Below, piece by piece: positions 20,169 through 25,900 of a stretch of DNA of 64,000 nt; positions within the stretch are counted from its first letter, which is position 1, and every line of letters starts with the position of its first letter. The DNA is from Victivallis sp. Marseille-Q1083. Lineage in GTDB: Bacteria > Verrucomicrobiota > Lentisphaeria > Victivallales > Victivallaceae. The position numbers were made by a program, and so were the translations under genes. The notes beneath the pieces are model-generated. The model saw only the letters and a program-made list of their open reading frames with translations. It had not been told where the DNA came from and searched no databases. The stretch is taken from assembly GCF_903645315.1 (NCBI RefSeq), contig NZ_CAHJXL010000001.1:2472501-2536500 (forward strand). Direction: 5' to 3'.

Positions 20169-21563
20169 TCAGTCCGGCAGCCGGATGTCATGGCGGAGCA
20201 GCTGGCAGTTTTCCAGGATAACCGGCGGCCGCTCATCCGGATAGCGCAGTTGAATCTGTACCTGGTCGAGTGATAAATGCCGGACATTGCGCAGGTCGAC
20301 GGCGGCCGCCCGGCTCCAGGCCGGCGCATAGTTGTTTTCCACCACCGGCACGTCCGGGGGATAGGAGTCGCGCTGGTCCAGAACCGATGGATACTCCTTC
20401 GGCAAATCGGTTGATTTTACGCCGCCGATGACCCGATAGCTGAGATTGGATACCGCCAGGCCGTCGATCGGATGTTCGGCCGCGGCGTCGGCCCTTATGC
20501 CGTTGAAACGGGGGGAACCCATCAATTCCCCGCCGAAACGGCGATGTTCGGCCAGCATTTCGTCGTCGTCATGGATCAGAATATTGTTGAATTTGAGATC
20601 TTCCAGCCGGCCGATGGCGGGGATGGCGCCGCCGGGCGGCCGATAGGCCTGCATGACCCTGCTGTTGTTCAGGAGGAGGAAGAGCGGCCTGGTGACATTG
20701 CGCATCGTCAGATTGCCGGCGGTGATATCGCGGATGACGCCGCCTTCGCTGCATTCGATTTTGATCCCCTCGCGCCAGACGTTTTCAAACGTGCAGTTGG
20801 CGATGACGACGTTGGAAATTTCGCCGGCGGAGCGGTAGCCGATCCGGATGGCGGCGCAGAGGGAACTGAAATGACAGTTGCTGATCTGGACATTGCGCAC
20901 CGGTTTGTCCGGCCGGGAGTTCTGCAGACATAAATTGTCGTCGGTGCCGCGAATCGAACAATCGGTGACGAAAACTTCACTGCAGTTGTCGAAATCCAGC
21001 CCGTCGCCGTTGTAATGCCGGTCATTGAAGATGTCCAGACCACGGCACCAGAGGCGGTCGCAGTCCAGGAACGCGACGGTCCAGGACGCGGCTTGATGGA
21101 GCCTCAGATTTTCCAGCCGGACATTCCGGCAGCGCAGCAGCCGGATCAGCATCGGCCGCGGTTCGTCGCCGCCGGGCAAACCCGCGGCGAATTTTTCATT
21201 GTTGCCGTTGATTTCACCATAACCGACAAGACCGATATTCTCCGCATCGGCTGCGAAAATAAAACAGCGATTCAGGGCGGTTTCACAGCGGTAACGGTTG
21301 TAATAAGTGTCATCGGGGTAGTCGTCGATGTTGCCGGAAGCCAGCAGCGTCGCCGCCGGTTCAATTTCGAGAAAGACATTGCTTTTCAAATAAAGCGTAC
21401 CGGACAGAAACGTTCCTCGATCCAGTATAACCCGGCCGCCGCCGTCGGCATGGCAACGGTCGATTGCCTGCTGGATGGCGGCGGTATCGGGCGTGACGCC
21501 GTCGCCGCTGGCGCCATAACGGCGGACCGGATAAGCGGCGGATGAGGTGTGGTAAGCGGTCAT
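20169..21563 (-). CDS. GH28-type glycoside hydrolase (polygalacturonase-like), cytoplasmic
   Basis: 464 residues with the right-handed beta-helix look of GH28. The N-terminus VRRYGASGDGVTPDTAAIQQAID is typical. Catalytic-type acids appear in NGDGLDFDN (Asp187) and GTDDN (Asp208-209), and GIKIE stands where the family has RIK. The GHG histidine motif was not found. No signal peptide precedes it, so it may act on imported oligomers. The start at 21563 has GGGAGAAG just upstream. The IS110 element ends immediately before that ribosome-binding site, separating this gene from the large secreted protein gene it probably once followed. Confidence 0.8.
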   Translation of the reverse strand: MTAYHTSSAAYPVRRYGASGDGVTPDTAAIQQAIDRCHADGGGRVILDRGTFLSGTLYLKSNVFLEIEPAATLLASGNIDDYPDDTYYNRYRCETALNRCFIFAADAENIGLVGYGEINGNNEKFAAGLPGGDEPRPMLIRLLRCRNVRLENLRLHQAASWTVAFLDCDRLWCRGLDIFNDRHYNGDGLDFDNCSEVFVTDCSIRGTDDNLCLQNSRPDKPVRNVQISNCHFSSLCAAIRIGYRSAGEISNVVIANCTFENVWREGIKIECSEGGVIRDITAGNLTMRNVTRPLFLLLNNSRVMQAYRPPGGAIPAIGRLEDLKFNNILIHDDDEMLAEHRRFGGELMGSPRFNGIRADAAAEHPIDGLAVSNLSYRVIGGVKSTDLPKEYPSVLDQRDSYPPDVPVVENNYAPAWSRAAAVDLRNVRHLSLDQVQIQLRYPDERPPVILENCQLLRHDIRLPD

Positions 21564-21607
21564 GATCTTCTCCCATGATAAATTTCCACTTCGATGTCGA
21601 GAAAAAC

Positions 21608-22627
21608 TCAATTTTTTACGAGCTTGAATTGAGTAAAATTCTCAAACATCCAATTGTTTTTTAATGTTCTATACACGATATCGAGGAATTTGCGAGCCAA
21701 GGCGATATTGGCTTTCGCACCTCCCCGCCGACTTTTTACCGATTCATGAAAGGCATTGAGATACGGGCTGTAGCGTTTGGCGATCAAAGCGCATTGCACC
21801 AAAGCGGTTCTGGCGATCTTGCTGCCGCTCTTCGTGATTCTTCCGTGGCAAACCGTGTCATTTGAATTGCTCACTCTGGGGACGATTCCGATATAAGCGG
21901 CCAACTGCTTTGCCGATCGGAAATCAGCGATATTGCCGATGGTTGCCAACAGGATCGCCGCACCTTTCGAGCCGATTCCCTTGATGGATTTCAGGTTGTC
22001 GAAGCCGTCCATCTTGCTGCCGTGATCCTCAATCGCCTTATCCAGTTTTTCAATGCTTTTGTTCAGACTGCGAATCTGTTCGACAACCACCAGCATTTCC
22101 GTGTCGGTGATCGGGTCGAAGTGATAACTCAATGCTTTCAAAAGCCCTTTCTCCGTGGACAGTTCTTCCCGTTTCAGCACGATGAAGTTAGCTGCTAACA
22201 GATTGTTGACTTTGTTTTTCAATACGGTACGCAACTGAACCAGTTTTTCCCTGGTCTGCGTCAGACTTGAAATTTTCGCCTGCAAATCGTCTTTCACTCT
22301 TACCTCCGGAAGCATATCCTTTTCCAGGAACTCCGCCAACACTTTTGCGTCATGTTTGTCCGTCTTTTTGGTGGACATGCTGATGACTTTGAACTGTGAT
22401 GGATTCACCACCACCAGTCGCCCGACATGAGCTTTCAGCGAGCTGCAAAACATGAACGTATTTCCGGTCGCCTCCACCGCCATCGCCGTGTTCGGACCGA
22501 GCATTGCGGCAAAGCCCTTCAGTTCGGTAATCTCACACTTGCCGATTTTCCGTTCTTCCCCATTTACCCGGATGCAATAAGTAAAATTGTTCCGGTGCAA
22601 ATCCACTCCAACAAAACTTGTCATCAT
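21608..22627 (-). CDS. IS110-family transposase (DEDD recombinase)
   Basis: 339 residues, full length. The N-terminal RuvC-like DEDD site is intact: Asp9 in FVGVDLH, Glu52 in AVEATGNT, and Asp90/Asp93 in KKTDKHDAK. A coiled-coil region (about 115-205) leads to the C-terminal Tnp domain with GIGSKGAAILLA, AAYIGIVPRVSNSND (candidate catalytic Ser253 or Ser255) and GRITKSGSKIARTALVQ. GGAGG lies 6 bases before the chosen ATG; a second ATG follows directly. With all motifs present it may still be active. The long leader, not the 3' end, would carry the guide RNA. Confidence 0.92.
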   Translation of the reverse strand: MMTSFVGVDLHRNNFTYCIRVNGEERKIGKCEITELKGFAAMLGPNTAMAVEATGNTFMFCSSLKAHVGRLVVVNPSQFKVISMSTKKTDKHDAKVLAEFLEKDMLPEVRVKDDLQAKISSLTQTREKLVQLRTVLKNKVNNLLAANFIVLKREELSTEKGLLKALSYHFDPITDTEMLVVVEQIRSLNKSIEKLDKAIEDHGSKMDGFDNLKSIKGIGSKGAAILLATIGNIADFRSAKQLAAYIGIVPRVSNSNDTVCHGRITKSGSKIARTALVQCALIAKRYSPYLNAFHESVKSRRGGAKANIALARKFLDIVYRTLKNNWMFENFTQFKLVKN

Positions 22628-22705
22628 TCTCTGCCTCCATTCGTTTTTCACGAATCGAAGCGGAACTGCTGTCACGGCCTCACCATCCTCCCATACAGAG
22701 TAGTC

Positions 22706-22860
22706 GATTAATCAGTCGCTCTCTACGGTGGCGCTCTGGTTTACAGATCTGACTAATCTCCTTTCCGGGGTCGTCATCGTTTCTGATGCGCCTCATTGAA
22801 ACATTCAGTCTGCAACCTGTCCGCTTCCAAACGTGTAAGTTAATCGCCATAAATTACACG
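22706..22860 (-). ncRNA. Candidate IS110 bridge RNA (structured leader)
   Basis: Read on the transposase strand, the leader has a 7-bp stem (CGTGTAA/TTACACG at 22832-22838 and 22854-22860) with a 15-base loop. It is followed by a 10-bp helix (22749-22758 with 22706-22715, all pairs allowed if one G-U is counted) enclosing 33 bases. A 5' stem followed by large internal loops, upstream of the transposase, is the known layout of IS110 bridge RNAs. Exact ends and loop assignments are not determined here. Confidence 0.45.
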
Positions 22861-22905
22861 CAGAAAGCTGATTCCGCGAACGTCAGTTATTTATCATACC
22901 ATCTC

Positions 22906-25900
22906 CTATGGTTGTGGTGCGATGGCAACCGGCAGGCGGAAATATTGCGTTTCGCCCGGCTGCAGCGTAACGGTGAAAGCCGGTTCATCCGGCAGCAATG
23001 GCGAATGGACCTGGCCGGTCACCGTTTCCGGGGTCGGATTGTGCAGCGCCGCCCGCCATTCCCGCTCATTGGATTGCAGTTCGATCCGGATGTCGGGCCG
23101 GTCGCAGACCAGCGGATGGCCGATGAAGACCTCCCGGGCGGCCGTCGAAGGCAATAGCGCGATTGTTTCGCCGTCGTATACCGGCAGTAATTCCAACGTG
23201 TGGCGGCGCCGGTCGCAGACGGCGGCGGCGAAATTGTTTTCCAGTCCGGTTACCCGGATAGGACAGTCCGGCAGAATCGTACTGCCGGCATGGAGCAATA
23301 ATTCGACCCGGCCGTCCCGGGCGGCTGTCGTTACCGGAAACAGGACGTTCGGGTCGCGTTCGCCGTGGCGCAGTTCGACGGCATCCTGCATGGCACCGAA
23401 CGAGGCCTGCAGCATGGCCGCCAAATTGGCATTGCGGTCAGTGCCGCTGTCCAACGCCACCAGCAGTTTCTGCCGGAAAACGTCGCCGCGGCGGATTTGG
23501 TTGTCCGGCAGCGTGTAGCCGACTTCCAGGCAGTTGCGGTACGGGTAAGCGCCGGAAACCAGCGCGTGATTGTGGCTGTTGCTGATGCCGACGGCGGCGG
23601 TATAACCGTCCTGCAGGGCAAAGACCAGCCAGTTGCCGGCCCGGCCGGGAAACAGTGTGACGCCGTCGCCGGCCGCGAGCTGCCCGGTATCGCAAATTTT
23701 GAAACAGTTTTCACCGGGCAGCTCTTCCTGATCAAATTGACCGGTTCCGGCGATGGCGCCCTGCTTTAAAAAGCGGTAATGCGGCAGCGGCTGGACTGTC
23801 GTCGAGCCCATCAGCCGCAGCAGCCGGACGCTAATGGCATTTTCAGTCGGGACGGCCCCGCCCGGCAGGCCGTTGCGCAGCAGGTGGGTGGGGTGTCCCG
23901 GGCTTTCCGAGGCGGCGATGGTGAAATCCTGCTGCGCTTCGAATTCCCCTTCGATCAGCAGCAGCGACAGTCCGTAAAGTGCCGGCCGGAAGATGGTGAA
24001 GCGACTTCTGCCGCGCATATAGGCGTCGTCGAGGAGGCTGTCGGTGACGATCAGTTTCGCGCTGCTGGCCACGCAATAACGTTTGACCAGCTCGGTCAGT
24101 CCGCCCGATTTGACGACTTTGCCGTCGTGCGGCAGGTAGCCGGGCACCGTTTCAAAGCCGCTGATGGCCCCCCAGGTGACATCTTCGCCGGCCGGCGCAA
24201 TTTCTTCGGGAGGAACGTTGACCAGGAACAATCCGCCGTCCATGCCGGTGATCCAGCAGCTCAGGATACTGGTTTCCCGCCCCAGCTCCGGCTGGTTGAA
24301 ATTCAGGATCAGATTCTGTTTGTCCACGCACATCGTATAGTTGAGGCGCGGATTCAAGGCCCGGATGCCGTTGGAAATCAGGCGTCCGCCCTGTTGATCG
24401 CGCCAGCTCAACAGCCAGACGCCGTTGTCGGCGACTTCGAGCGGAAAATTGTGCTGCAATTCGGCCGATTCCGTTGCCAGACGCCGCCAGACCGTGTTGT
24501 TGTGCACCAGCTCCAATTCGCCGCCGTCCGGCAGGGCGGCCAGGTGCAACAGCATTCGGGCCGGATTGACGCCATCCGGATTCCATTCCAAGCTGCCCGC
24601 CTGCCGGATCAGCCGGTCATCCTGCTGTAATGCAAAGGCGGCGAGGCGCGCGCCGGTGGACAGATAGGTGGCGCCGGAATCGGCGAATGTTTTCAGGCTG
24701 TCGGGGATTGCGGCGGCATCCGAAGCCAGCGCAATGGTTTTGGCCCCGGTGTAGGCCGCCAGCGTCTCCGGGGAGGAAACCTGAACGACGGCGGCCGGAA
24801 TCAACCGATAGTCGCTGGCGGTCAATTCCCGGTAGAGTGTTTCGGCATCCCCGGTCAATTGGCTGTCGGTGTACGACAATACCGATAAACCGGTGTAGAA
24901 TTTCAGGTACCACGGTGATTTGGCATTGGCGGCCGGCCGGTCGAGAATGACTCCCGGCCAGCCGAGGTTGAACAGCAGTGCCGGCCAGTAGAGGTCGTCG
25001 AATTCTTCCGGGGTTGGAAAACGTTTCGGATCGATAACGAACCGGTTGCCCCGTTCGGGTTGTTCCAGATAAAGGGCCGGCAGAATCAGGAATGTTTCAT
25101 CGCCGGCTGTCCGGCATTGCTGCCGGAAGCGCTCGAACCGTTCCCCGTCATTGCGGCCGGCTCGCAGCGCCAGAACGGCGTAATCATTCCGGTTGGCGCG
25201 CGCCGCCGCGAAATAGGCGGACCAGTCGCTTTCCGGTGTTTCGGCCGGCAGCACGGCCAGAATTCCGCTGTAGGCGGCTCGGCCATCGCCGGGGATTGCC
25301 GTCGGTGCCTCCGGGACGGGCAGCGGGCGGATGCGCGGCGCCGGCTGTTCCGGCCGGGCAACACCCCGTCCGGCTGCCAGCGATGGCACCGCCAGATAGG
25401 CCAGCAGCCGGTCATAAAATTCCCGGGTGTCGCCGCGTTGCAACGCATAGCCGTCATAGGCCGGATGGGAACCGTTCTCCAGTGGATACATCGGATCGAT
25501 TGCCACTACCGCAACCCGGCCTTTGCCGAAGTCCCGTACCGCCGCGATGGTTGCCGGAGCGGCGGCCGGTCCGCCGGTGATCAGCGTCTGCCATTCGGAT
25601 TGGGGCAGCAATTTGCCGGTGGCCGGTTCGTAATCGGCCTTGCCGCCGGGATAATAGAACTCCTGCAAGCCGGCAGTGACCGCATGATTGCGGTTCAGCC
25701 GGTCGGTGCGGTAAAAGAAATAACGGCTGGTCCATTCGACGGCGACTTCGTGGTCCGGGTCGCTCAGCCGTTCCCGGTGGTATTCGATCCCGAAGGGGCG
25801 CAGCAATTCGTTCAATTCAGCGGTCGCCCGGTCGAAGTCGCCGTAACCGTTAAAACCGGTCATCACCAGCAGACCGCCGCCATTGGCGACGAAGTCGGCA

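Follow-up and report, generated by a model that had tools for sequence, protein, structure and literature searches.

A 64,000-nucleotide (nt) stretch of the genome of Victivallis sp. Marseille-Q1083 (contig NZ_CAHJXL010000001.1, positions 2,472,501 to 2,536,500; this whole stretch is referred to below as the window) contains an insertion element of the IS110 family at 21572–22906, whose transposase gene and leader both lie on the minus strand, as do all features of the element given below. Comparison of the element with its copies and relatives makes it very probable that the leader encodes a guide RNA of the bridge or seek type, approximately 223 nt long, which would steer the element's DEDD-Ser recombinase to Shine-Dalgarno (SD) sites by way of a shared GG core. 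A first-pass annotation of the window had proposed that the leader (given there as 22628–22897) is a bridge-type RNA. A leader, 22628–22906, does lie upstream of an intact IS110-family transposase gene, and the proposal has come through both of the tests set for it: homologous leaders carry compensatory changes well above shuffles, and parts of the loops agree in sequence with the flank of the target and with the right end of the element, the target guide covarying with the target.

The boundaries of the element, which include one copy of the GG core at each junction, are defined by an empty site and by 18 full-length copies in the host genome, near-identical in their interiors and with different flanks. 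The left core (22905–22906) lies in the target SD (CATA-GG-AG) and the right core (21572–21573) in ATCATG-GG-AG; written in the orientation of the transposase, the left end is AGATGGTATGATAAA, and the right end of the 18 full copies is TTTATCATG-GG-AG, followed by the target. Subterminal inverted repeats are present on the left (ATGATAAA, 22890–22897, 7 nt from the core, 22898–22904) and on the right (TTTATCAT, 21575–21582, 3 nt from the end, 21572–21574). Arms of 8 bp matching at seven or eight positions, with 7-nt left and 3-nt right extensions, are found in all 15 elements for which both ends were compared, although one bulged base is needed in four of these. The noncoding DNA amounts to about 277 nt upstream of the transposase gene and 36 nt downstream. 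A covariance model identifies 21 leaders in the host genome—those of the 18 full copies, of two leader-only elements, and of one 5′ part with a broken transposase—and older fragments are present at C1:1298893 and C2:87577 (contig and position). All 21 of these recent copies have the left flank NNA-GG-AG, in a single orientation.

A natural empty site is provided by a second IS110-type element in the same genome, the 5′ end of which occurs at 10 places; seven are unoccupied and read CACAAAAGGAGACATCAGCCATG, and three are occupied there. Comparison of the unoccupied and occupied places shows that AAAAGG was present prior to insertion and was not duplicated by it, and a defined target entered in one orientation without target duplication is the behavior expected of the IS110 family. 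Exchange appears to be confined within the GG, as judged from the overlap at one element (L022, with the right junction AGGGG) and at the solo leaders. The second element itself is a distant relative of the first (23% identity), with nine transposase copies and ten 5′ ends, and is hit by it at three places; its sites are G000:C1:460102, 881058, 1988817, 2426681, 2438764 and 3794049, and C2:319252, 493300 and 746849.

Twelve leaders were aligned: that of the window, those of 10 homologs with a full leader, and that of L071 (partial; a second element of genome G033), the homologs being drawn from public genomes and relatives. The transposase identities of the homologs are 96, 92, 90, 87, 76, 76, 74, 62, 59 and 58%, and the transposase is cut or broken in L025, L026 and L054. 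RNAalifold predicts 64 pairs, 29 with double-sided changes; the consensus, to which a 7-bp stem was added, has 71 pairs in 10 helices, the tenth lying 3′ of the guide RNA, with 92.7% of cells paired. Double-sided compensatory changes occur at 31 of the 71 pairs, against 13.3 in shuffles, and pairing falls to 33–41% (maximum 40.6%) when partners are slid, a control that favors the structure because it was derived from the same alignment. The window leader has a folding energy of −91.6 kcal/mol (z −3.8), and none of 200 shuffles is as good.

The predicted guide RNA spans 22665–22887, its ends being set by the outermost conserved helix of the consensus fold. Within it are a 5′ stem-loop (helices 3 and 4, 22823–22868); loop 1, the predicted target-binding domain (22738–22817), formed by helices 5 and 6 (96.7% and 94.0% of cells paired, double-sided changes at 4/13 and 4/7 pairs); and loop 2, the predicted donor-binding domain (22681–22730), formed by helices 8 and 9 (95.0% and 97.5% of cells paired, double-sided changes at 0/5 and 6/10 pairs). 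A further hairpin, helix 10 (22635–22659), contains the transposase's own SD and has double-sided changes in five of nine pairs. The 7-bp stem noted in the first-pass annotation (22832–22838 with 22854–22860) is helix 4 of the 5′ stem-loop; it is perfect and real, but only partly conserved, with 84.1% of cells paired, double-sided changes at two of the seven pairs, and gaps in two to three distant rows. The 10-bp helix GATTAGTCAG/CTGATTAATC (22706–22758), also noted there, exists in the window copy, yet it is not conserved: none of the other 11 leaders has the same 3′ arm, and in the conserved fold these bases have other partners. As a target-loop helix it was rejected, since 68.2% of its cells pair (at most 50.5% when slid), none of its 10 pairs has a double-sided change, and all of 500 shuffles reach the observed value.

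Nine spirochaete leaders, from elements with 32–41% transposase identity, fold independently into the same two-loop plan, with double-sided changes at 14 of 34 pairs compared with 6.8 in shuffles; the number of further pair types in this set does not exceed that in shuffles (the observed value is attained by 135 of 500). Left out of the spirochaete alignment were L044 (a leader without loops), L046 (for which a left end was not seen), and all but one (L032) of the 12 Marispirochaeta copies.

Two guide loops had been proposed and two are present, although these are not the loops originally named, and the predicted guides are on their 3′ sides. The general plan is NNN-GG-AG on the 3′ side of loop 1 and ATA-GG-AG on the 3′ side of loop 2, the latter being ATG-GG-AG in the window element. 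The target guide of the window element is AAAGGAG (22758–22764), predicted to pair with the bottom strand and covarying with target positions −3 and −2; the donor guide is ATGGGAG (22688–22694), the same sequence as at the right end. In homologs, ATAGG stands in right end and donor guide alike wherever the right end is seen, and in the alignment the donor guides of L025 and L090 are ATAGGAG.

Correspondence of guide and target was counted for 19 elements with a full left flank among 22 tabulated, the three that begin at contig ends being omitted, and with the window element entered by the majority of its sites. At −3 and −2, guide and target carry the same base in 32 of the 38 cells (30 of 36 in an initial version of the count), where 18.8 ± 2.1 would be expected by chance; none of 200,000 shuffles reaches this, nor does any of 200,000 shuffles within clades. 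The adjacent position −4 has no signal (5 of 19 matches, 4.1 expected) and was rejected as part of the guide. In an unbiased scan that set the variable columns of the leader against eight positions on the left of the target, under both modes of pairing (2,496 tests), the pairs column 169 with −2 and column 168 with −3 rank first and second. Among 18 distinct left flanks of the window element, whose guide is AAA, 17 carry A at −3, whereas the six seen for a Marispirochaeta element with the guide TAA all carry T (Fisher P 5e-5). A plasmid element of the alphaproteobacterium Tardibacter (48% identity) has the guide GAA-GGAG at the target GAA-GGAG, and its donor guide ATAGGAG recurs as the right end, after which an ATG stands at SD spacing. 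A separate candidate pairing, between ACC(G/A)U of loop 2 and the left end ATGGT (by eye), was rejected, since the end of L054 changes without a matching change and an intramolecular stem explains the bases better.

Several observations weigh against a guide RNA. The guides are short (about 7 nt), with two informative target positions only and a nearly constant GGAG, and the donor covariation consists of a single change, from A to G, made together by donor guide and right end in the window element (the right end is seen in seven of the 12 aligned leaders). The six mismatched cells of the 38 are at −3 in L052, L053, L027, L047 and L048 and at −2 in L045; the window element's own site (ATA) mismatches its guide (AAA) at −2, L025 has AG in its guide in place of the GG of its left junction, and a decayed older copy (L093) has ATATGG on its left. 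A top-strand guide (RTG/RDG) was not found in the scan, which covered left target positions only; the best complement-mode matches are isolated single columns with z at most 2.7, out of register with the loops, and on the right-hand side of the target the bases beyond GGAG show no conservation. At gathering score Rfam has four matches in the window and none in the leader, and with E-values up to 10 the leader yields one sub-threshold match, to a CRISPR repeat on the opposite strand. A scan of the inserted copy for sigma-70 promoters found none, with 1.4 expected. A possible −10 box, TATGAT, is present at 22893–22898; it may belong to a promoter completed only in a circular form of the element, and from its position the RNA would begin close to the first helix. 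Terminator-like sites in the region number three against 1.9 expected; one, a stem with a T-rich tail, is inside the leader on the minus strand (22859–22878), such sites being near chance.

The target sites are predominantly SD sequences. An ATG follows the GGAG by 4–10 nt, that is, at SD spacing, in 17 of the 18 full copies, and in 16 of these 17 the frame that begins there runs for 122 codons or more, the exception being L014 with seven codons; the broken copy was omitted since its right junction is not its own. In the window, the target gene is a 464-amino-acid reading frame (20169–21563, minus strand), before which the element's right end places GGGAG. Elsewhere, L010 and L018 share one type of target gene with each other. 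One full-length insertion (L012) and one solo leader (that of L091) are within reading frames, and the solo leader of L092 is at an SD (frames by eye). Four full copies (L002–L005) precede genes with a prepilin-like start, and another prepilin-like gene (C1:2359588) has an unoccupied AAAGGAGATGGTATG; this was considered as an additional left end and rejected, as it is the gene's native SD, with 13 nt shared. Within the left end, at SD spacing after the target SD, there is a mini reading frame (ATG ATA AAT AAC TGA; 22883–22897, alignment columns 10–25). Its stop lies no more than five codons beyond the ATG in 11 of the 12 aligned leaders (by eye), L090 being longer, and the frame is not kept short in several spirochaete elements; it may be a ribosome trap, or due to chance.

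That the preference for SD sites results mainly from selection—any AAAGGAG being read, with insertions inside genes subsequently lost—is rather probable, and is compatible with a guide RNA, since it concerns the SD bias alone. AAAGGAG occurs 495 times in the genome (921 for the backward control), and is followed by an ATG after 3–10 nt at 166 of these (42 for the control). With the element's own motifs subtracted, roughly 146 of 455 host AAAGGAG sites (about 32%) have such an ATG, compared with 18 of 20 insertions, which would have a probability of about 1e-7 from choice of the motif alone, equal chances being assumed. A sequence guide followed by filtering would yield such a bias, and the two insertions inside reading frames also favor selection; on the other side, the element may actively favor some sites, for instance start regions that are transcribed or accessible. 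We read the bias as sequence guidance combined with the loss of harmful insertions.

The two leader-only elements are about 270 bp long and consist of the left end and the leader, terminating at CGAATGG and joined there to the GAG of the target. In the window element CGAATGG lies at 22637–22643, in the SD region of the transposase's own gene, and the solo leaders look like products of the recombinase that used this internal sequence as a pseudo right end. No further solo leaders were found in 195 genomes of the class; a guide-RNA model matched 10 of these genomes, all with some transposase sequence (fragments only in G007).

The solo leaders also bear on whether the leader might be a mere structured 5′ untranslated region that controls translation of the transposase, with the recombinase protein itself reading AAAGGAG. 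The covarying helix 10 does contain the transposase's SD, and GGAG motifs recur in the leader. Against this reading stand the two solo leaders, which occupy target sites of their own with no transposase, and the in-register covariation of guide bases with the target, absent at the neighboring −4; we consider it very unlikely. Least credible of all is that hidden reading frames in the leader use its AGGAG motifs as ribosome-binding sites, and that these motifs resemble the targets because both are SDs, for while motif and targets are SD-like and the window has an in-frame extension of the transposase starting at a GTG (22675), this coding extension was rejected as not conserved (L025 has a stop and L022 another frame, by eye), bases −2 and −3 track the target, and two of the 20 insertions are at AAAGGAG within reading frames (frames by eye).

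For the guide RNA we propose the following mechanism, by analogy with IS621 and the seekRNA elements. Once transcribed and bound by the recombinase, the RNA would hold target and donor, the latter probably from a circular intermediate, in its two loops, and the recombinase would swap strands at the common GG core to give the junctions target-GG|AG-left end and right end-GG|AG-target. Insertions fall in SD sites, and in the sense orientation, because the guide sequence AAAGGAG is itself an SD. The target's SD would remain on the left and the right end, ATCATRGGAG, would rebuild an SD before the target gene, which thereby would keep a ribosome-binding site; as a sense insertion in a 5′ untranslated region, the element may in addition be transcribed from the host gene's promoter. 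The first-pass suggestion of a working element is plausible in view of its 18 near-identical copies and the natural empty site.

The transposase (21608–22627, 339 amino acids) is intact, matches PF01548 and PF02371, the DEDD (RuvC-like) and Transposase_20 domains, as well as the NCBIfam model NF033542, named 'IS110 family RNA-guided transposase', and is similar to the solved structures of IS621 (3.4e-15) and ISCro4 (8e-15). Residues D10, E53, D91, D94 and S256 are invariant in 14 of 14 aligned transposases, that of the window included, as expected for the DEDD-Ser enzyme that had been proposed; from alignment with IS621 we take these residues to be catalytic. The serine motif is G--P----SN in all 14 sequences, compared with the published SG. 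In a tree of 16 transposases the window clade is separate from both the IS110 and IS1111 groups with moderate support (88/87), three rows having long branches. ISEc11, IS4321, IS5708 and ISShdy1 group together (100/99), the last three of which we take to be members of the IS1111 group, and the window transposase is not among these IS1111-type rows. A 76% relative (L023) is in a metagenome bin labelled Clostridia, and may be misbinned or recently transferred. Among viral contigs, 12 stretches match the search pattern and none encodes a relative. Residues 123–252 of the transposase (P0001) have a weak likeness to a TIGR-Tas endonuclease model (6e-8, 32.9 bits, with a cut-off of 100), and the TIGR-Tas paper (PMC12045711) mentions IS110.

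The element shares features with two kinds of known guide-RNA systems. Like the IS621 bridge RNA (PMC11208160), the predicted RNA is encoded in a long left end, has the order 5′ stem-loop, target loop and donor loop, places a dinucleotide core within the pairing, and accompanies a related recombinase. It differs in that the core is CT in IS621 and GG here, the repeats are 2–3 bp there and 8 bp and subterminal here, the guides here are about 7 nt, and each loop of IS621 has a top-strand guide (PMC11208160), whereas here bottom-strand guides are on the 3′ sides and top-strand guides were not found. With the IS1111 seekRNA elements ISEc11, ISKpn4 and ISPa11 (PMC11187229) it shares the 7-bp left and 3-bp right extensions of the subterminal repeats, a bottom-strand match toward the 3′ side, and lack of target duplication. 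In those, the noncoding region is downstream of the transposase gene rather than upstream, the repeats are usually 11–13 bp (PMC11187229; 7–17 bp according to PMC11208160) rather than 8 bp, and there is a top-strand match; the window transposase, moreover, is in its separate, moderately supported clade. The bottom-strand guide precedes the top-strand guide in IS621 and ISEc21, and the order is reversed in IS1111 seekRNAs (PMC11208160, PMC11187229). Of the traits that define the IS110 group, the upstream noncoding region is found and repeats that are absent or of 2–3 bp are not; of those defining the IS1111 group, the 7/3-bp extensions are found, and a downstream noncoding region and grouping with IS1111 transposases are not. 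A mixed element would have some precedent, since the upstream/downstream rule has exceptions according to PMC11187229.

It is possible, and we suggest it tentatively, that the clade, with members in Lentisphaeria and relatives, in spirochaetes and on one alphaproteobacterial plasmid, represents a third type of guide-RNA recombinase, standing between IS110 and IS1111. Such a type would be characterized by an upstream RNA, IS1111-like end geometry, one-sided bottom-strand guides aimed at SDs with the ribosome-binding site rebuilt at each insertion, and solo guide-RNA elements of about 270 bp moved in trans.

SD targeting by IS900, an IS110-family element of Mycobacterium avium subsp. paratuberculosis, was reportedly the subject of a 1997 report by Doran. 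The target motif of IS900, CATGNNNNNNTCTCCTT, reads on the complementary strand as an SD with a start region after it, and its insertions disrupt only three genes; no guide RNA is named for IS900 in the passages covered (PMC8141618). SD targeting itself is already known from IS900 (PMC8141618). The first-pass description of the system as undescribed holds within the literature searched, outside which lie most subscription papers and bioRxiv preprints: no paper was found there that deals with this clade, with solo bridge RNAs or with a guide RNA that targets SDs, and the passages covered of PMC11616780, PMC3196728 and PMC7823733 contain no SD targeting by IS110 elements.

With approximately 20 natural insertions made by one guide, and homologs with shifted guides, the rules relating guide to target can be read without experiment, and a guide of about 7 nt would make this a minimal RNA-guided recombinase. 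The mixture of IS110 and IS1111 traits bears on the split between those groups, which PMC11208160 also raises as a question. That a high-copy element can insert while leaving most target genes unbroken would be explained by a guide aimed at ribosome-binding sites, and the leader-only elements suggest that a parasitic element can itself be parasitized by its guide RNA.

Upstream of the element in the window is a 1259-amino-acid reading frame, the stop codon of which (TAG, 22906–22908) has its last base, 22906, in common with the GG core, so that this frame stays intact after the insertion.
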